Below are positions 851 through 23,665 of a DNA stretch of 23,665 nt, in pieces. Under the pieces are notes generated by a model that worked only from the letters and a program-made list of their open reading frames with translations, was not told the DNA's origin and searched no databases. Positions within the stretch are counted from its first letter, which is position 1. Every line of letters starts with the position of its first letter. The translations under genes and the position numbers were made by a program. The stretch comes from a virus: positions 1-23,665 of the IMG/VR virus record IMGVR_UViG_3300042881_000499. One strand, 5' to 3'.

Positions 851-2901
851 TAGTATGTTGTTTCAATTACTTTTAATAAACTTATTTTGGTCGTATTGTA
901 TTCCATAGGGTTAAAGTTCTCAACCTTATTTAATCTAAATAGTACTCCATCAATCCAAATGTACTTACTAAAATCTAGATTATTAATATCATTAGTATTT
1001 AGCAATGCAGAACAGGTTAGTAGCTTACTATCTTTACTTGTAATTTCTGCTATGTAATCACTATGATATGCGTTAAATATATTTGCTATTGGATAGCCGC
1101 TAGTATTAAACTTAGTCTCAAATGGCACACCAAAATTAATATCATTACTTGGCGCAAATGGGTCATCAAGATGTCCACCATACCCATAGTTAGTTATTGT
1201 ATCAAGTACAGCCAATCCGCTTAAAATATTGTAACTCGTTCTCCCTGTTATCTTTTTAATTTGTAATATTCTAATAACACTATCCATTGAATTTTCTTTA
1301 GTATTATTATCTGATATTTTATATATAGCAGGATATATCTTATCTGTTCCATCTTTTTGATATAAAACACTTGGCGCAAATATTACTTCAAGTGTATCTG
1401 TTTCTTTACTAAAATCATATTCTGTATCATATATCCTATCTCCATAGCTTTCATTGTATTTTTTATTATAATTCTCATTGTAAAAATCATTGTCTTTTGT
1501 AAACTTATAATCAAAATACCTTGCATTTAGTTCACTCATAGGCTTAATACTTAAAGGCTTAGACCTGTCTATTTTATTAGACCAATCTAAAGCATTAGCA
1601 TAAGTGTCATCATAGAAGTTAATATAAGGCTTTATAATTAATTTCTTATCATTCCAAGTATCTTCGTAAACATATAAGTTAAACATTTTAACTATGCTTA
1701 AAAAGAAGTCTCTTTGGAATATACCTTTTGGTATTGTATCATTAATAACTAATGCATCACCATAGGCAACATTAACAGGCACAAGTGCATCTGAAAAAAA
1801 TGATACTTGACCTTCTGTTATTGTAACAGGTGGGTCGTCTCTATTAGGTGCAGTATTAGTAAACCTAAAACTAATTGCATCGTTTGTATTTATTAACAAT
1901 TCAAATTCTCCGTCTTCTCCAACCCCTCCAACAAAATTTGATTCATATACGCTTGACCCATTTTTTAATATATAAAAAACACCACTTGTTGCATCACCGC
2001 TAAATGTATAAACCATTTTTAAGGTTGTAGAAACTGTACCTGTATATGTGAATACGCTATTTGAACCGCTTGGAACTAACCCTGAACCTGTAACTGTTGT
2101 AAATCTATATAGACTTGTTCCTGTAATTATTTGCTCTGTTGTCCTTGTAGCTACATTTAAAGTCCCTGTTGTCTTAGTTAAATTAATTTGATTATGAGGT
2201 ATAACAATTCTGTTAAATAAGTTTTGGTCACCTGTTAGCAATTCTAATGAATAAGTATAATCTGTACCTGCAAATATCTTTTGTAAATACTCTGATAAAA
2301 ACAAAGCAGGTCGATATGCAGTTACCTGAAAGTTAACTTTGTCAGTGCTTACATTTCCGTAATCTACTAAAGGATAGAAATAACCTGTGCCATATGCTAC
2401 GCTATTATTATCACCTCTTGCACCTGATACTTCCCAACTAGCTTTAATATTATCTATATTGTAAGTATGGTCATAGTCGCTAAAATCCAAGTCTGTTAAT
2501 CTTTTATTACCTAGTGTATTTATAAAACCACCTAGTTCACCGAATACAGAACATTGATACTCAATAGTCTTATCATCAATTACTATTTCTAGTATTCTTA
2601 ATGTGCCTTTAAATATCTGTACCTTATCAATAAAGATTCTACATTGAGCAGACTTTGATGCATTAAAATTGTAGTTAACATTAGGCAAAGTATTGTCTGT
2701 AAAGTTTGCATTACCTAAATCAAATACAAAGCCAAATATTCTATTGTTAATTGCAGTTCCTGAAATATTAATAGTCTTAGAATAAGATGTGTTTCTACTT
2801 CCGAAGTCATTAATATCATCGATAGCATAATTAAACTCTGTGCTTATATCTTGCAATAAGTCTAATTTATAATCCTCAACATATATTTCTGTACTAATCA
2901 T
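850..2901 (-). CDS. Large tail/baseplate protein (683 aa)
   Basis: The protein is 683 residues, has no signal peptide or membrane segment, and is rich in beta-prone Asn/Thr/Tyr/Ile sequence as expected for a virion protein. The N-terminus holds the stretch DFGSRNTSYSKTINI at about residues 33-47, a pattern I associate with tail/baseplate proteins of Bacteroidota phages. The C-terminus (YIWIDGVLFRLNKVENFNP) resembles the end of hub-like domains. It lies directly upstream of the tape measure candidate and joins both neighbours by one-base TAATG overlaps. A distal tail or baseplate hub role is likely from position, but no enzymatic motif was seen and the exact role is inferred. Confidence 0.55.
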   Translation of the reverse strand: MISTEIYVEDYKLDLLQDISTEFNYAIDDINDFGSRNTSYSKTINISGTAINNRIFGFVFDLGNANFTDNTLPNVNYNFNASKSAQCRIFIDKVQIFKGTLRILEIVIDDKTIEYQCSVFGELGGFINTLGNKRLTDLDFSDYDHTYNIDNIKASWEVSGARGDNNSVAYGTGYFYPLVDYGNVSTDKVNFQVTAYRPALFLSEYLQKIFAGTDYTYSLELLTGDQNLFNRIVIPHNQINLTKTTGTLNVATRTTEQIITGTSLYRFTTVTGSGLVPSGSNSVFTYTGTVSTTLKMVYTFSGDATSGVFYILKNGSSVYESNFVGGVGEDGEFELLINTNDAISFRFTNTAPNRDDPPVTITEGQVSFFSDALVPVNVAYGDALVINDTIPKGIFQRDFFLSIVKMFNLYVYEDTWNDKKLIIKPYINFYDDTYANALDWSNKIDRSKPLSIKPMSELNARYFDYKFTKDNDFYNENYNKKYNESYGDRIYDTEYDFSKETDTLEVIFAPSVLYQKDGTDKIYPAIYKISDNNTKENSMDSVIRILQIKKITGRTSYNILSGLAVLDTITNYGYGGHLDDPFAPSNDINFGVPFETKFNTSGYPIANIFNAYHSDYIAEITSKDSKLLTCSALLNTNDINNLDFSKYIWIDGVLFRLNKVENFNPMEYNTTKISLLKVIETTY

Positions 2902-4127
2902 TATCTAAATTGACTTGTTATATATTTACCAACCTCAATATCTATTTCAAAATTAAATAGCTTATCCGAACTTTCTAACTTGTATTCGTAATTCGTGCTG
3001 CTAATTGTAACAGGGAAGTATGCACCTTGCACCTCCATATAAGTAATCGTACTTGCAAATAATTGTGCCAACCATTCGTAATCTTGTTGGCTTACCCAAT
3101 CAGATACTAAGTGAAACATATCCTTATGCTGAATAGCATAGTTTAAAGTAGTCTCATTGTACTTATTATATGAATCAATATTACTCATTGTATTACCTGT
3201 TAGCTGCCAATCATTGCGCCTGTATGATGCCCTTTCTAAACTTGTTGACCTTTTATTGACTAGGGCAAACTTCATAGTGTCCCAACCTCCTAATCTGTTT
3301 AAGAAGTGCAAGTTGTATTGCCTGTATTTAGGATAGCACTTTTGTTTAAATTGTAGCTTCCTAGATATTGCGACCCCTCTTTTTAAATAAACATTGTATC
3401 CATAAGTGTTCTCAGTAATTATAGTTCTACCTGCAAAAGTATTAATATGCCCTGCTTGACAATTAAATAGATTCATTTCCCCTGAAAATGTAATTCCACC
3501 ACTGACCGTATCTAAAACTGTACCTGATTCGTTAATAGTTTCTATCCATGCAGAATAAGTACCTGCCGTAATCTTAAAATATGTCGCATAAAAATTGTCT
3601 CCATACTCTATTGTTATATTGTCTGCATCTCTTTCTGTTAGCCAATCATCTGTAAAGTTTTCAATTAGTAAGTTATCATAATAATCTGATAGGACTAAAG
3701 GGGTATTGTTATTAACAAATAAAATATCAGCAAATAATGGTGGATAATAGTTATAAGCACTTAATGCGCCTGAAACTAATCCTGCGCTAGTAACTAAGTT
3801 ACCACCGCTTACATATTCTTCGCCTACCTGTATTGTAGAATTAACTTTAATCTTGTCATTAGATGCAACTAAAATAGAACTTCCTGAAGGTTCAAAGTAG
3901 TTAGTAACAAATGCCCTTACCATTGGGGATGCGTTAAATACTCCATAACTGCCTTCTGCAGATGGTGATGGATATACCTTTGTTCTGCTTACCTGTGAGC
4001 CATTAACGTAAACATCGTAAACAAACTTAAATGCAGTTTCACCTACATTAGTTGAACTTGATACATACCATAAGTCATCGTGCATACTAGAATATGGTGC
4101 AGGACTGCTTTGTATTGTTATTGCCAT
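2901..4127 (-). CDS. Tail structural protein (408 aa)
   Basis: This is a 408-residue protein with a beta-rich composition, many Ser/Thr/Asn/Tyr residues and no membrane segments. The N-terminus (MAITIQSSPAPYSSMHDDLW) and the segment around residues 40-75 (VNGSQVSRTKVYPSP onward) look like a beta-sandwich virion domain. Its stop codon overlaps the start of the 683-residue tail protein in a TAATG junction, so the two are probably made in a coupled way. The upstream neighbour ends 4 bases before its start. I infer a tail or baseplate subunit from context. A major tail protein is less likely because of the length, but cannot be excluded. Confidence 0.5.
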   Translation of the reverse strand: MAITIQSSPAPYSSMHDDLWYVSSSTNVGETAFKFVYDVYVNGSQVSRTKVYPSPSAEGSYGVFNASPMVRAFVTNYFEPSGSSILVASNDKIKVNSTIQVGEEYVSGGNLVTSAGLVSGALSAYNYYPPLFADILFVNNNTPLVLSDYYDNLLIENFTDDWLTERDADNITIEYGDNFYATYFKITAGTYSAWIETINESGTVLDTVSGGITFSGEMNLFNCQAGHINTFAGRTIITENTYGYNVYLKRGVAISRKLQFKQKCYPKYRQYNLHFLNRLGGWDTMKFALVNKRSTSLERASYRRNDWQLTGNTMSNIDSYNKYNETTLNYAIQHKDMFHLVSDWVSQQDYEWLAQLFASTITYMEVQGAYFPVTISSTNYEYKLESSDKLFNFEIDIEVGKYITSQFR

Positions 4128-4131
4128 TTTA

Positions 4132-4842
4132 TTATTTTCCTTTTGATTCTTTTGTAATGTTTGCTGCTATTCTTACCGATGCATCGCTTATAATTGCATA
4201 AGCTACTGCGTCTGTAAACTTCTTATCAAATACCTGTGCTACTGCGTTGTCAAAATACTTAGTTTGCTTAATACCTCTTTTTTTAATGTTAACAGATATT
4301 GCGTATGCTAAAGCTCTTTTATTCTTTGCGTCTGTCAGTAATTTTTTTAATCCTTGTTTCTTTTTTTGAGTCGGACTTTCGCCACCATCTCTGCTAGTAG
4401 TTACATTGTCTGTTCTAACAGATTTCCTAGCTTTATTTAGCCAAGTAAATATATTTGCTGCCATTTTCCTATTAGGGTAAATGGTTTTATATGCGTATGG
4501 AGTATCAGAAGGAGAACCGCTTTCTTTACCTTTTACCCCTTTGTTTATAAAATCAAAATACTTAATCTGTTCACTATCTGAAGGATAACCTAAAGCTAAA
4601 ACATAATTAGTACCAAATTTTTTAATTGTAGGAAATGAAACTTCTGTAAGTTTACCACTAGCAATTGACCCTGATTTTTCTAAATTATCTAATATAGCCT
4701 TATTAAAGTCTAAGCCAAATTCAAGCAAAACCTGTTCAAGGATAGGTAATTTCTTGCTATTAACTACCTTATAGTCGCCACTGCCTATCTTTTGAATATA
4801 GCCGTCTCTTAGTGCTTCTATTTGATTCCTACTAATGCTCAT
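4132..4842 (-). CDS. Putative tail completion / virion-associated protein (236 aa)
   Basis: The 236-residue product is basic, with Lys-rich stretches around residues 158-190. It contains YFDFINKGVKGKESG at about residues 94-108, then an Ala-rich helical C-terminus (AYAISVNIKKRGIKQTKYFD). A glycine-containing 'fINkGV' segment followed by a basic 'aysIaknIkkrGi' helix recalls HK97 gp10-like tail completion proteins, which bridge head and tail. The gene lies between the tail assembly chaperone pair and the large tail proteins. The similarity is by eye and weak, so the family assignment is an inference. The ATG at 4842 follows an 86-base intergenic stretch containing a stable hairpin. Confidence 0.4.
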   Translation of the reverse strand: MSISRNQIEALRDGYIQKIGSGDYKVVNSKKLPILEQVLLEFGLDFNKAILDNLEKSGSIASGKLTEVSFPTIKKFGTNYVLALGYPSDSEQIKYFDFINKGVKGKESGSPSDTPYAYKTIYPNRKMAANIFTWLNKARKSVRTDNVTTSRDGGESPTQKKKQGLKKLLTDAKNKRALAYAISVNIKKRGIKQTKYFDNAVAQVFDKKFTDAVAYAIISDASVRIAANITKESKGK

Positions 4843-4928: not shown

Positions 4929-5201
4929 CTATCTTATCTTTTTTATCTGCTCATTATCGTAATCATTCTTAGCTTTTAAATATGATAGCGTATTTAAAAA
5001 ATGTATAACCTTTAACTCGTAAACATCTTGCAGAACTATTGCCTCGTGTTCTGATACTATTTTTGCGCAGTATTGCCATCCAAAATATTCCATAAAATTG
5101 CTGCCACCTTTTCTGCCTTGTCCATTGTCAGACCCTGTTTGTTCAGATTCTCCGTCAAATAATCCTTTGTAATTGGAGTCCAATCGTTGAATACTTGATA
5201 A
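4929..5201 (-). CDS. Tail assembly chaperone, frameshift extension (T-like part)
   Basis: This frame is open from just after a TAA 21 nt upstream of the T-run down to the TAG at 4929. It has no ATG before an internal Met well into the frame; the first possible start is a TTG at 5183. It lies in the -1 frame relative to the 207-residue chaperone gene and overlaps its last part. A shift at the T-run (5200-5208) would add about 90 residues after 160 shared residues, giving a product of about 250. The conserved-looking part is FMEYFGWQYCAKI followed by DVYELKVIHFLNTLSYLKAK, a helical pattern like phage tail assembly chaperone extensions. I interpret it as the equivalent of lambda gpT in gpGT. It could instead be translated separately from TTG. 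Confidence 0.6.
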   Translation of the reverse strand, partial: LSSIQRLDSNYKGLFDGESEQTGSDNGQGRKGGSNFMEYFGWQYCAKIVSEHEAIVLQDVYELKVIHFLNTLSYLKAKNDYDNEQIKKIR

Positions 5202-5680
5202 AAAAAAACAACCGAAAAGTAAACCTCTTTAAAATTAGCGTGTAAAATATCATTGGCATACTCTTGATGCAGGTCTGAATTGTACTTTAAATCTACATAT
5301 TTAAACCATTTGCGTTCTTGTGGTATAACTATTGATGCAGCTATTTTATGTAAGTTAGGTATTAGGTCTTTCATAAAATACTTGCTTTCTATATACCTTG
5401 CAGTATTAATATCCTTAGAATCTTTAATAAACTTATATATTCTTTTATTAGCAAAGATTCTATTTACAGGTTGCCCTTCGTAGTTATCCTTTAAAAAATA
5501 CAATTCTGCCCTGTATTTATCTAATTGCTTTTTAGGTAAATTAGTTACCTGATTTTCAGTTAGGTTATTTATAATAGATATTAGCTTATTCTCAATATCC
5601 TTTTCTGTCCAATCTTTAGATGGGTTAGTAATTATTGGATACATCTGTTGATAATGCCATACTGTTATTTTATGCCACAT
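5057..5680 (-). CDS. Tail assembly chaperone (G-like), 207 aa
   Basis: The soluble, charged, largely helical 207-residue protein sits upstream of the tail structural genes and tape measure, where siphophages encode the chaperones that coat the tape measure during tail assembly. The gene overlaps a second ORF in the -1 frame by 127 nt or more, the classic layout of lambda G/GT-type genes. Residues around 150-160 are encoded by the nine-T slippery run. The unshifted product ends with an amphipathic segment (KAEKVAAILWNIL). The start ATG at 5680 overlaps the end of the small membrane protein gene upstream by 16 nt. The function is inferred from architecture and position. Primary sequence is poorly conserved in this family. 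Confidence 0.55.
   Translation of the reverse strand: MWHKITVWHYQQMYPIITNPSKDWTEKDIENKLISIINNLTENQVTNLPKKQLDKYRAELYFLKDNYEGQPVNRIFANKRIYKFIKDSKDINTARYIESKYFMKDLIPNLHKIAASIVIPQERKWFKYVDLKYNSDLHQEYANDILHANFKEVYFSVVFFYQVFNDWTPITKDYLTENLNKQGLTMDKAEKVAAILWNILDGNTAQK
5201..5207 (-). promoter_or_regulatory. Candidate -1 ribosomal frameshift slippery site
   Basis: Nine consecutive T occur on the minus strand at 5208-5200. In the upstream frame the codons read GTT TTT TTT TAT, so the heptamer T TTT TTT at 5207-5201 allows both tRNA-Phe to re-pair after slipping back one base. The next codon is then TTA in the downstream frame. The frame difference between the two ORFs is exactly -1. Such a run could also act by polymerase slippage. 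Confidence 0.55.
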
Positions 5681-6328: not shown

Positions 6329-6378
6329 ATTTTTAAACTTTGTGATGAACGGCAAATAATAAGGATGAACGGTAATTA
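6329..6378 (-). repeat. Regulatory repeat, copy 1 (two GATGAACGG half-sites)
   Basis: This 50-bp intergenic element recurs at 17052-17102. Shared blocks are ATTTTTAAACTTT, TGATGAACGGCAAAT and GATGAACGGTAA, separated by a 6-bp non-conserved spacer. The half-site GATGAACGG starts at 6344 and 6364 (plus-strand coordinates), exactly 20 bp apart in direct orientation. The element ends on the terL stop codon and lies 38 bp from the TATCTTTG box. Direct repeats two helical turns apart suggest a dimeric or cooperative DNA-binding regulator. Confidence 0.6.
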
Positions 6379-7527
6379 TAGAAAGGAATACCTGCCTGAC
6401 CCCCTTCTAATGCTAAAGTTAGACCACGCTAAAGCCAATGACATTACGCAGTCATCGTGGAATCCACTAGGTGCAGAGTACTTAACCCCATTAGCCGTAA
6501 ACTGATATTCAAACACTTGTAACTCATTTGTAATTGCGCCTTCAGGGAATCCTATTCTGCCTTGTTGTATAGCAGTTGCAAGACCTTCCATTAGTTGTTG
6601 CTTACTTGAACTTGTAAACTTTAAGCCTTCAATAGCTATGCCTTCCCTTTGTAAGTCCTCTAGGATAGGGTCACCTACTCCTGTGCTATCTATTAATATA
6701 GGGCATCTTGGCAGCCTCTTTATATTCTCCTTAGTGTTATGCCAATCCATTTGATACCTGTCAAAGTAAGCCACATTGCCATTATTATCAAGACCTATTA
6801 TCACCGTATGGTCAACAGACTTTGCAAGGTCAATCCCAAATGCTACTATTTGTTGACTGCTAATTGGTCTTATACAATCTTGAATGAACTTATTTCCAAA
6901 TGGGTTTGCGCTATTCTCTGAAGGGTTAGCCATATACTCCTGCTCAAATACTACATTTGGCAGTTGCATCCTAGCTTCATCTATTTCCTGTGGGTCTATG
7001 TATGGATTATCGTAACTCGTAAATTTAAAGGATGCCCAATCATTTTCACCCTCTTTCATAAACAAGCTATAAAAATAATTCTTACCTCTAGGGGTTGAAA
7101 GGAATATTGCCTTACCCTTGTAATCTGTTAAGGTTGGTCTAATACTATTTTGCCATCCTGCTTCTAAGTCAGGTATAAAGGATGCTTCATCTATAATAAC
7201 CAAATGGAATTTACGACCTCTAAGGTTATCTAGTCGTTCACCTGTAAAGAATTCTACCTGCCCACCATTAGGGAAATCTATTTTAAGGTCAGACTTATTT
7301 TTAGGAAGGTCTAGGGATTCAGTTAGCTTAGAAAAGAAAACCTTAGCTAGTCCATAAGTAGGGGTTATATAAGCCACAGAAAGACCTTTAACGGCATATG
7401 TAACAGAAAGTATCTGTGATAGTTCTGACTTACCAAATCTACGACCACACATAACTACCCTAAAACGCTTATCACATTCTAAGATTCTTTGTTGGTTTGC
7501 GTGTGGGTTAGGTAGAAATATCTGCAT
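6376..7527 (-). CDS. terL: Terminase large subunit (ATPase/nuclease)
   Basis: TerL is the motor that cuts concatemeric phage DNA and pumps it into proheads. At 383 residues the protein is short for the family but has both domains. The ATPase shows Walker A GRRFGKS at residues 28-34, Walker B with catalytic Glu in IIDEA at 111-115, and the coupling motif LSTPRG at 143-148. The RNase H-fold nuclease shows acidic residues in GIDLA (Asp233), ILIDSTGVGD (Asp280) and HDD (358-360). Its start overlaps the methyltransferase stop in a TAATG junction, and its stop abuts regulatory repeat copy 1. No head genes follow, which is unusual. Confidence 0.95.
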   Translation of the reverse strand: MQIFLPNPHANQQRILECDKRFRVVMCGRRFGKSELSQILSVTYAVKGLSVAYITPTYGLAKVFFSKLTESLDLPKNKSDLKIDFPNGGQVEFFTGERLDNLRGRKFHLVIIDEASFIPDLEAGWQNSIRPTLTDYKGKAIFLSTPRGKNYFYSLFMKEGENDWASFKFTSYDNPYIDPQEIDEARMQLPNVVFEQEYMANPSENSANPFGNKFIQDCIRPISSQQIVAFGIDLAKSVDHTVIIGLDNNGNVAYFDRYQMDWHNTKENIKRLPRCPILIDSTGVGDPILEDLQREGIAIEGLKFTSSSKQQLMEGLATAIQQGRIGFPEGAITNELQVFEYQFTANGVKYSAPSGFHDDCVMSLALAWSNFSIRRGSGRYSFL

Positions 7528-12418: not shown

Positions 12419-12897
12419 TTACGAATAAATTTTTTTAGTTCAGATTTAGTTTGTTTTAAAGTTCTTATGATTGACATATAAGGGATACCTGTCTGTCGGC
12501 TTAATTCCTTTGCATTTTTGTTAAAGTCAAAAGTATATAGCCTTAATATTTCCTTTTGATACCAATGTAGTTTTTCAATACCCTTCTCCATTACATCTAT
12601 CACACTATTACTTTCTACTTCTGCAACTTCTTTACCATTGTATTCTGTATAATTCCTGTACTTCTTCCAAAATTGACTTCTATCTGACTTAATCATATTT
12701 AGCATAGTTCTAACTATGTAAAATCTTATTTCGCCTCTTTCATATAAACCAAATAACTTTTCATTAGGCATTTCTAATAAAACCATAAAGACTTCAACCT
12801 TTAAATCATATTGCAATTCTTCAGGCTGCATCTTTGCAAATGCCTGATTGACTTCATCATTAAGCCAATATTGCTCTATAATTTTATTTTTGTCCAT
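12415..12897 (-). CDS. Sigma-70-family-like transcription factor
   Basis: The 160-residue protein has the size and layout of ECF-type sigma factors. Residues about 28-80 form a charged helical region like sigma region 2, including EIRFYIVRTMLNMIKSDRSQ, which resembles the helix that contacts core polymerase and the -10 element. Residues 107-157 look like region 4: EKLHWYQKEILRLYTF, then a helix-turn-helix (NAKELSRQTGIPYMSIIRTL). It could redirect host RNA polymerase to phage promoters. The region 2 match is weak, so an HTH regulator is the alternative. It overlaps the VRR-NUC gene by 22 nt. Confidence 0.6.
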   Translation of the reverse strand: MDKNKIIEQYWLNDEVNQAFAKMQPEELQYDLKVEVFMVLLEMPNEKLFGLYERGEIRFYIVRTMLNMIKSDRSQFWKKYRNYTEYNGKEVAEVESNSVIDVMEKGIEKLHWYQKEILRLYTFDFNKNAKELSRQTGIPYMSIIRTLKQTKSELKKFIRK

Positions 12898-13190
12898 TCA
12901 ATTAGTACAGGCTGATTATCTTTTTCAGTACAAATATATACTAATCCTTGACAATTATGGATATCTTCTAATCTTTCTTTTTGTTCAATACTTAACTTAT
13001 CGCCTATTTTTTTTACTTCAACTGCAACATATTTACCTTCAGATGTGTAACCTTGTAGGTCTGCCCATCCTTTTTGTATTGTTCCTTTACGTTTACCGTA
13101 TGGTATATTGTTTACTCTATTAAGCCTGTACCCAATATATTCTAAATTTTTTTTTGCCCATTTAGTTAGTTCATTTGCCGATATGTCCAT
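12876..13190 (-). CDS. VRR-NUC domain nuclease
   Basis: The 104-residue protein matches the VRR-NUC fold, a PD-(D/E)xK nuclease family. The motif GWADLQGY at about residues 41-48 gives the catalytic Asp, and VAVEVKKIGDKLSIEQKERL at 55-74 gives the ExK pair and the conserved Gln. The C-terminal CQGLVYICTE is the expected last strand. Stand-alone phage versions are thought to process branched DNA such as Holliday junctions, which would fit concatemer resolution before packaging. It overlaps both neighbours by 22-25 nt. Confidence 0.85.
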   Translation of the reverse strand: MDISANELTKWAKKNLEYIGYRLNRVNNIPYGKRKGTIQKGWADLQGYTSEGKYVAVEVKKIGDKLSIEQKERLEDIHNCQGLVYICTEKDNQPVLIEWTKIKL

Positions 13191-21847: not shown

Positions 21848-23665
21848 TTATTTGTTTTTAAGTATTTCTATTTCTTGTTTTAATTCTTGTACTGCCTTTG
21901 TTAAAATAGCTATCATATTATTATACTCAACACCAGCTAATGAACCATCTTCTTTATAAAATACTAATTCTTTGTTTACCTTCTCTACCTCATCAGCTAT
22001 AAAACCATAATTAATGTTTTCGTATAATTCATCTGTAAATTGATTTGTTACATCATTTTTTTTACGATAGTTAAATGAAACAGGATTTAACTTATTAATA
22101 AAATCAACATTTTTTATTGATTGTATATTGTCTTTTGATTCTCTTGTAGATACTAAATATCCTAATCCACCTCCACTTTCAACAACCATTGCCCTTCCTG
22201 TAACGGCATTATTATAAGTGAATGTACCTGCATTAACAAACCCATCTCCTCTTACAAAAAAATATGTACTTGTAGTAGCACCATTTAAAATCCTGAAAGC
22301 AGTATCACTTGAATTTGTACCACCAAATATTTGAACTCCAAAAGATTGTGATGTAGTAGTTGTTCCTCTAAAAACACCAGACCAAATATTATTGCCTCCA
22401 TCAACAACAAATTTATCATTAGGACTACTCGTTCCGATTCCAACGTTACCATTACTAAGAAATGAAGCAACTGTTCCAACACTTGATGTAACATCTAAAA
22501 TCCTTCTGCTTGAATTATTTTCGTTTAAGTGAATAAGCATAGCGTGTTGTAAATTACTATTACTTGCTCCTCTTATTTCTGCCGTATAATTACCAGTAAA
22601 TGCACCAGTTGCACTTGTTGCAAAGTTTCTAACTAATAGCATTTGAGTATTACCACTATTTTCACTTGATACTTGTAAAAATCCATTTGGACTACTCGTT
22701 CCGATTCCAACGTTACCACCGCTTGTGATACGCATACGTTCTGCAAGACTACCACTTCCACTTGCACCTGTTTGAAAAATAATATTACCACCAGAACCAC
22801 CAGCTAAATATGCTTGTAATTTTAAATCAATATTTGTACTATTAATGTAGTTGCCTGTATATGATGCTTCTTGACCCATTTTAAATCTAACACTTGTGGC
22901 ATCTTCTCCCATAGTTAAAACATCATTACCTAATGATTTTGCAAGACTTAATAATGCACTCGGACTACTCGTTCCGATTCCAACGTTACCATTATCTTTA
23001 AATCTTACTAATTCACTTCCACCTGATGTACCTGTTCTATTTGTTGCAAAAATAAAACTTGCCTCTGTTTGGTTATTATCAGAATCAATGTTAAAAAACA
23101 TTTCATCTGCCGTATTAATAACTGCATTAACTGCACCAGCAGTACCAAGTGTTAAAGTTGGAGAACCATTTGCAGCAGCCGTAAATGCACCAGCTCCTCC
23201 TGCCGTTACACTACTTGAGAATGTAGCAGCACCAGTAGAAGCTATTGTAAAAGCAGCACTTCCTCCGTTATTAGTAGAAAATAATATTTTTTGGCTATTA
23301 GTTGCTCTTATGTTTAAATCCCCTAATGCAGAACCATTTATAAGGTCATTAGTTGAACCAGCAATCCCAATTAAACCATAAGACGTACCACCAATTTTAT
23401 AAGTGTTATGAGAAGCGCCAGAAGATGGATTTATTACTAAACCTTCATTTGAACTAAACGTAGCACTTGTACCATTTAAAGCACCAGTAAGCGTACCACC
23501 AGTTAAAGGTAGGTAAGCACCTAAATCACTTGACAATGCTAAAGTGCCACTTGCAGCAGGGAAGGTGTAATTGTAAGAATTTGCACTTGGGAAAATAAAA
23601 CTTGCTCCCCCAGTACCATTTCTTAAACCAAAATTAATTCCTTCATTACGCGCCCACATATGAGT
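21848..23665 (-). CDS. Tail fibre/spike with C-terminal S74 chaperone (N-terminus outside)
   Basis: The last 100 residues form an intramolecular chaperone auto-processing domain (peptidase S74). STRESKDNI supplies a Ser-x4-Lys dyad, followed by KLNPVSFNYRKK, YGFIADEVEK and a C-terminal coiled coil. This domain trimerises the fibre and cuts itself off. The upstream part is Gly/Ser/Asn-rich with repeated NVGIGTSSP motifs, typical of fibres. A Met at 23659 exists, but the frame is open to the window edge, and a start at MWARNEGINFGLRNGTGG would lack the usual tail-attachment domain. The gene therefore probably continues beyond the window. Host receptor binding is the likely role. Confidence 0.85.
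   Translation of the reverse strand, partial: THMWARNEGINFGLRNGTGGASFIFPSANSYNYTFPAASGTLALSSDLGAYLPLTGGTLTGALNGTSATFSSNEGLVINPSSGASHNTYKIGGTSYGLIGIAGSTNDLINGSALGDLNIRATNSQKILFSTNNGGSAAFTIASTGAATFSSSVTAGGAGAFTAAANGSPTLTLGTAGAVNAVINTADEMFFNIDSDNNQTEASFIFATNRTGTSGGSELVRFKDNGNVGIGTSSPSALLSLAKSLGNDVLTMGEDATSVRFKMGQEASYTGNYINSTNIDLKLQAYLAGGSGGNIIFQTGASGSGSLAERMRITSGGNVGIGTSSPNGFLQVSSENSGNTQMLLVRNFATSATGAFTGNYTAEIRGASNSNLQHAMLIHLNENNSSRRILDVTSSVGTVASFLSNGNVGIGTSSPNDKFVVDGGNNIWSGVFRGTTTTSQSFGVQIFGGTNSSDTAFRILNGATTSTYFFVRGDGFVNAGTFTYNNAVTGRAMVVESGGGLGYLVSTRESKDNIQSIKNVDFINKLNPVSFNYRKKNDVTNQFTDELYENINYGFIADEVEKVNKELVFYKEDGSLAGVEYNNMIAILTKAVQELKQEIEILKNK
22422..22451 (-). repeat. 30-bp fibre repeat, copy 1
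   Basis: One of three identical 30-bp direct repeats within the fibre gene. It encodes the GNVGIGTSSP turn motif. Other copies are at 22689-22718 and 22962-22991, with start-to-start distances of 267 and 273 bp, both multiples of three. Confidence 0.85.
22689..22718 (-). repeat. 30-bp fibre repeat, copy 2
   Basis: Identical to 22422-22451 over 30 bp. It marks the start of another fibre module. Confidence 0.85.
22962..22991 (-). repeat. 30-bp fibre repeat, copy 3
   Basis: Identical to 22422-22451 over 30 bp. Nucleotide-level identity, beyond protein conservation, suggests recent duplication or ongoing recombination between modules. Confidence 0.85.

Follow-up and report, generated by a model that had tools for sequence, protein, structure and literature searches.

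A conserved nine-T run and a probable frame switch in a tail-chaperone-like gene of Bacteroidota tailed phages

The stretch of DNA analyzed here, hereafter the window, is a tailed-phage genome fragment of 23.7 kb (positions 1-23,665 of IMG/VR record IMGVR_UViG_3300042881_000499). In a module read from the minus strand, the gene of the terminase large subunit (6376-7527; PHROG_2, E 8e-48) lies upstream of ORF1 (5057-5680), which has its ATG at 5680, its stop at 5057 and 207 codons. ORF1 is overlapped by a second ORF on the same strand (4929-5228), which is open in the -1 frame from about 5228 to a stop at 4929-4931. The module continues with a 236-aa gene (4132-4842), two conserved genes of 408 aa (2901-4127) and 683 aa (850-2901) without family match, and the start of a tape measure gene (2-850; PHROG_991 tail length tape measure, E 1.6e-4). 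The window ends within the latter and thus lacks head genes. The gene of Nonlabens phage P12024S whose place is similar to that of the 236-aa gene resembles HK97 gp10 and tail completion proteins, through weak matches that concern the P12024S gene only (PHROG_5, E 4e-4; Pfam, E 0.03). Besides the terminase and the tape measure protein, the only tested window protein with a usable match in Pfam or PHROGs is the product of a tail fibre-like gene at 21848-23659, which carries a C-terminal Peptidase_S74 intramolecular chaperone domain (Pfam E 1.6e-8). Elsewhere in the window, a run of nine A, a slippage-prone length, is found on the coding strand at 13147-13155, near the start of a 104-aa gene (12876-13190) that is nuclease-like by eye.

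The earlier note had described the overlap of the 207-codon ORF with a -1-frame ORF as a tail assembly chaperone pair joined by a frameshift at the nine-T run, and its account of the layout holds in nearly every detail. In the frame of ORF1 the run (5208-5200) reads GTT TTT TTT TAT and contains the heptamer T_TTT_TTT at 5207-5201, in the register that had been proposed. The -1 frame does open shortly before the run, at a distance of 20 nt, not 21, and the predicted fusion of 160 residues of ORF1 with 90 residues used after the slip (4929-5680) is exact. The -1 frame also has no good start codon, as claimed: its only possible starts are a TTG nine codons past the run start, imposed by a Trp codon of frame 0, and an ATG at 39 codons, found in most members of the window's family (family A) and missing from a number of relatives. 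Of 20,000 synonymous randomisations in which the frame-0 protein was kept fixed and the phage's codon usage applied, 0.015% left the -1 frame free of stops across the overlap; the +1 frame has three stops in the same stretch.

IMG/VR homologues were gathered with three kinds of queries: ORF1, the neighbouring 408-aa gene and relatives of ORF1. The set obtained with the 408-aa gene is independent of the T-run, while some ORF1-type peptide patterns (FYQVFNDW and FFYHLGND, among others) adjoin or touch it; any one locus was reachable through several patterns. All relatives keep ORF1, and the T-run is kept by all non-fused homologues covering the junction in family A and in the P12024S-like family (family B), with T9 in the same register throughout the two families. 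More precisely, (G/T)TTTTTTTTTAT is kept in all 85 of the distinct non-fused regions of family A that span the site, a count that leaves out L080, which begins past the site, and L083, which is cut inside it. The run is T9 in these regions, except for T10 in two, and the flanking codons vary. It is also present in all of L124-L143. Family B (L150-L212), whose members are mostly about 25-33% identical to P12024S gp38, keeps NTT TTT TTT TAY, the two Phe codons being preceded by one for Val, Leu, Ile or Phe; in L187 and L201, T9 is present and the frames are broken after it. Among Bacteroidia homologues at yet greater distance, most have a run of equal length (nine). Conservation of the run is far in excess of chance. 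The main check that the earlier note had proposed, whether homologues with both ORFs also retain the run, comes out in its favour.

The last base of the heptamer (Z) is always T, though C would be silent in both readings (TTC in frame 0, CTA in the -1 frame), and TTC makes up 36% of ORF1 Phe codons away from the slip site (349/968). Because a tally of the slip-site Phe codons is drawn from T9-selected sequences, it was excluded as evidence. Third-base changes were counted on trees inferred from the region ahead of the site. Neither slip Phe codon has any in either family, against averages of 10.0 in the upstream two-fold columns of family A (23 columns) and 5.5 in those of family B (12 columns). 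As dual coding would predict, the entropy of codons is lower in the overlap (about 0.3) than upstream of it (about 1.1). The alignments show the -1 frame to be conserved starting at the T-run, and the domain that it encodes is conserved as well: in family A it ends with LSYLKA..D, and in family B it runs KWGWY..IY.LA.GD...CL.FL. Past the frame-0 stop, the -1 frame is under purifying selection, with substitutions at its codon positions 1/2/3 numbering 769/675/1629 (73 comparisons).

In one clade (L102-L105, L109, L144-L147), a single ORF encodes both parts and the T-run is absent; these sequences read DVYYSVSKFIKVISELDSNFKGLY, where the -1 reading of their relatives is SVVFFLSSLQKLDGGFKGLF. Since the fused clade branches within family A, next to L101/L106/L107 (support 95/85), the frame switch was lost through fusion. 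The clade has Ser-Lys-Phe or Thr-Lys-Tyr in place of Val-Phe-Phe, so the latter residues are dispensable in the long form. Neither a separate short form nor a conserved reverse-frameshift heptamer at the junction was found in the fused clade, which seems to make only the long form, unlike what a lambda-like ratio would lead one to expect; despite the two-product requirement, it has no obvious route to a short form. By uniting the two parts in one frame, this clade shows that the predicted fusion is a meaningful product. Overall, the frame switch is supported about as well as sequence alone allows, and we infer that the window's phage makes the long form.

Structural models are consistent with this view. 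The AlphaFold model of a natural fusion (L103, its alignment made of rows from ORF1 and from the -1 ORF) has a pLDDT of 87 and a pTM of 0.82, the fused protein being predicted as one confident fold in which a flexible linker (175-188) is followed by a helical C-terminal domain. A frame-0 model from family B has a similar order of elements. In a Foldseek search against viral models, the L103 and family-B models retrieved P12024S gp38 (E 3.5e-8 and 7e-13); when it is structurally aligned with the fused family-A protein, identity is only 13%. In this cultured phage gp38 directly follows the terminase gene and carries the site CTT TTT TTT TAT with a -1 domain (L148:23136-23830). In both P12024S and P12024L, gp38-gp39 are homologous by fold to the pair described here and share its -1 domain, its site and its post-terminase place; they differ in that identity and in being annotated as two hypothetical proteins, which PHROGs lists with function unknown (PHROG_32199, the P12024S counterpart of ORF1, and PHROG_38404). 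The link to P12024S is by fold only, as tblastn against INPHARED returned no matches for ORF1, the fused form or the 683-aa gene. Fold and profile searches of the PDB gave nothing above noise, an absence that is not taken as a sign of a new fold. The frame-switch proteins matched no named tail chaperone, Pfam family or PDB entry; the only Foldseek rows named chaperone were weak, with Caulobacter phage Seuss at E 0.22 and Rhodobacter phage RcRhea at E 1.3. Flavobacterium phage 6H (L149:10352-10927), a weak fold relative with a CFFYSTR end and T_TTT_TTC, was rejected as a further case as its -1 frame stops immediately. A possible T-like domain lies after that stop.

Two mechanisms have to be weighed for the frame change itself, a -1 ribosomal shift, as the earlier note had put first, and transcriptional slippage, which it had mentioned as an alternative. 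The downstream hairpin that it had reported as absent is indeed not to be found in conserved form: RNAalifold detected no conserved RNA structure after the run in family A and a negligible one in family B (-0.64 kcal/mol), with a mean z near 0, and the mild folding of some single sequences downstream (z about -1) is not conserved. Neither model is at odds with this result: certain tailed phages shift without stimulators (PMC5009743).

The conventional explanation is that the same G/GT pair would be produced by -1 ribosomal frameshifting, through tandem tRNA-Phe slippage on T_TTT_TTT with no stimulatory structure, as is the case for lambda, and we consider it a serious contender, at somewhat less than even odds. 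All frame-changing homologues that were read have the heptamer T_TTT_TTT in register with the frame-0 codons, and this holds also for a clade whose run is T7 only (L231-L236; L231:1468-2166). H_HH.U_UU.Y heptamers rank among the efficient ones in E. coli (PMC4066793), and the tail chaperone frame changes covered by a review that also describes shifting without stimulators are ribosomal (PMC5009743). Three features are nevertheless left without an account. First, Z is never C: it has 0 changes, where comparable columns average about 10 and 5.5, and yet tetramer tests in E. coli show shifting on U_UU.C to be no weaker than on U_UU.U (PMC4066793). Second, the T9 length is kept across two registers. 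In the distant Bacteroidia homologues other than the T7 clade, the run is exactly nine and reads either NTT TTT TTT T.. (L216 with Trp, L220, L221 with Cys) or NNT TTT TTT TTR (L217, L219, L222, L223, L229, L230, L237); a middle base other than T in the first codon goes with one additional T at the opposite end of the run. Finally, Val-Phe-Phe is retained, even though the fused clade has exchanged it.

Slippage of the RNA polymerase is favoured by the invariance of Z, by the maintenance of T9 in two registers, and by the fact that nine is the length at which avoidance of A or T runs becomes evident in many bacterial genomes (PMC1088944). A homopolymer of about nine A or T is present at the junction in the window and in all T9 lineages, and is absent from L231-L236. 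In that clade the site reads CAT TTT TTT AC., which is exactly the heptamer register, and the -1 domain is present; for these reasons a ribosomal shift on T_TTT_TTT is likely there. The register switches number 3-4 on the tree, only one of which is forced by well-supported branches, so that the two registers may stem from a small number of independent events, and covariation of residues could produce the same picture. Given these two points and the T7 clade, the comparison of sequences leans slightly, at little better than even, toward polymerase slippage that inserts an extra U, rather than a -1 slip of the ribosome, in the T9 lineages. Nine As in dnaX of Thermus thermophilus are a known site of programmed transcriptional slippage. 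As in that gene and in the Shigella mxiE/spa genes, an A/T homopolymer here would give two products per gene; those are not phage tail genes, and slippage at the present site is deduced solely from comparative sequence.

The gene neighbourhood bears on the function of the pair. In the longer relatives, the order is terminase, frame-switch gene, genes of about 222 aa, 408 aa and about 700 aa, and a tape-measure-like gene, followed by a head protease, a scaffold-sized gene, a major capsid-like gene, a 172-aa gene and the portal. A similar order, from terminase through tape measure, is found in P12024S and in a region of a 3.9-Mb Flavobacteriaceae contig (L218:6872-18001), which contains a terminase gene, a frame-switch gene with CTT TTT TTT TGG, a tape measure gene and capsid-like genes. 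This region resembles a prophage and suggests Flavobacteriaceae as hosts. The module order, as seen in L118, L122 and L120-L121, is unusual in that tail genes and the tape measure gene precede the head protease, capsid and portal genes.

The architecture of a short form with a -1-extended long form, together with this gene order and the conservation of the gene in Bacteroidota tailed phages, supports a lambda G/GT-like tail assembly chaperone as the best and likely reading. Of the label given by the earlier note, the fit to architecture and neighbourhood is borne out, without any match to an HMM, a PDB entry or a named chaperone; as to the lambda-like location before the tail proteins, the frame-switch gene does lie upstream of the tape measure gene in the same cluster, but three genes separate the two. 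Like lambda gpG/gpGT and its HK97-type equivalents, the pair combines a short form and a -1-extended long form; as for lambda gpG/gpGT, it is conserved in tailed phages and a stimulatory RNA structure was not found. It differs from lambda in several respects: no sequence relation is detectable, the site is a poly-T run held at nine where that of lambda is not poly-T, the gene comes close after the terminase gene and three genes ahead of the tape measure gene, and one clade has fixed the fusion.

According to this model, reading in frame 0 would yield the 207-residue short form, and at the nine-T run a fraction of expression would shift by one base into the -1 frame, giving the 250-residue long form, made of the first 160 residues and a 90-residue C-terminal part in which the helical domain would follow the flexible linker. 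As proposed by analogy with lambda gpG/gpGT, the shared part would coat the tape measure protein, the -1 domain would recruit tube subunits, and both forms would depart before tail completion. Leaving the polymerase question aside, we regard a frame switch combined with a tail-chaperone-like role as highly probable.

That the frame-changed pair is real but serves as some other virion-assembly protein appears unlikely. The distance from the tape measure gene, the lack of homology to known chaperones and the existence of a clade with the fused form only would agree with such a function. Against it, a locus between terminase and tape measure that encodes a short form and its -1-extended counterpart is characteristic of the tail chaperones of long-tailed phages, and the gene remains in the terminase-to-tape-measure cluster in P12024S and in the Flavobacteriaceae chromosome. 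It is far less plausible still that the -1 ORF is translated as an independent gene from an internal start, without any frameshift, as the annotation of P12024S gp39 as its own gene and the in-frame ATG 39 codons past the site in most family-A members might suggest, since that ATG is not general, the TTG merely follows from the frame-0 Trp, conservation of the -1 frame begins at the T-run, the fused clade unites both parts, and the invariance of T9 would be left without explanation.

A bolder reading, to which we give a probability of 0.45, is that Bacteroidota tailed phages make a tail assembly chaperone pair through polymerase slippage at a fixed T9 and not through ribosomal frameshifting, that the T7 clade relies on a ribosomal shift, and that another clade has given up the switch by fusing the two parts. 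The literature that was searched, which excludes most subscription journals, holds nothing on poly-T tail chaperones or on slippage in phage tail genes, and among phage structural operons, the T9 site is a strong candidate for a case of transcriptional slippage.

A frame-switch site is given here for a large Bacteroidota phage family; annotation that ends at ORF ends overlooks the long form. The same frame switch is found, unannotated, in a cultured and published phage, P12024S, the two halves of whose protein are currently catalogued as unrelated (PHROG_32199 and 38404). The T9, T7 and fused versions of one gene offer a natural test of how the product ratio is set in tail assembly, and the T7 clade hints that homologues of one gene may employ different mechanisms of frame change. 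If slippage at T9, ribosomal shifting at T7 and fusion are all confirmed, a single gene family would display three ways to set or drop the ratio of its products.
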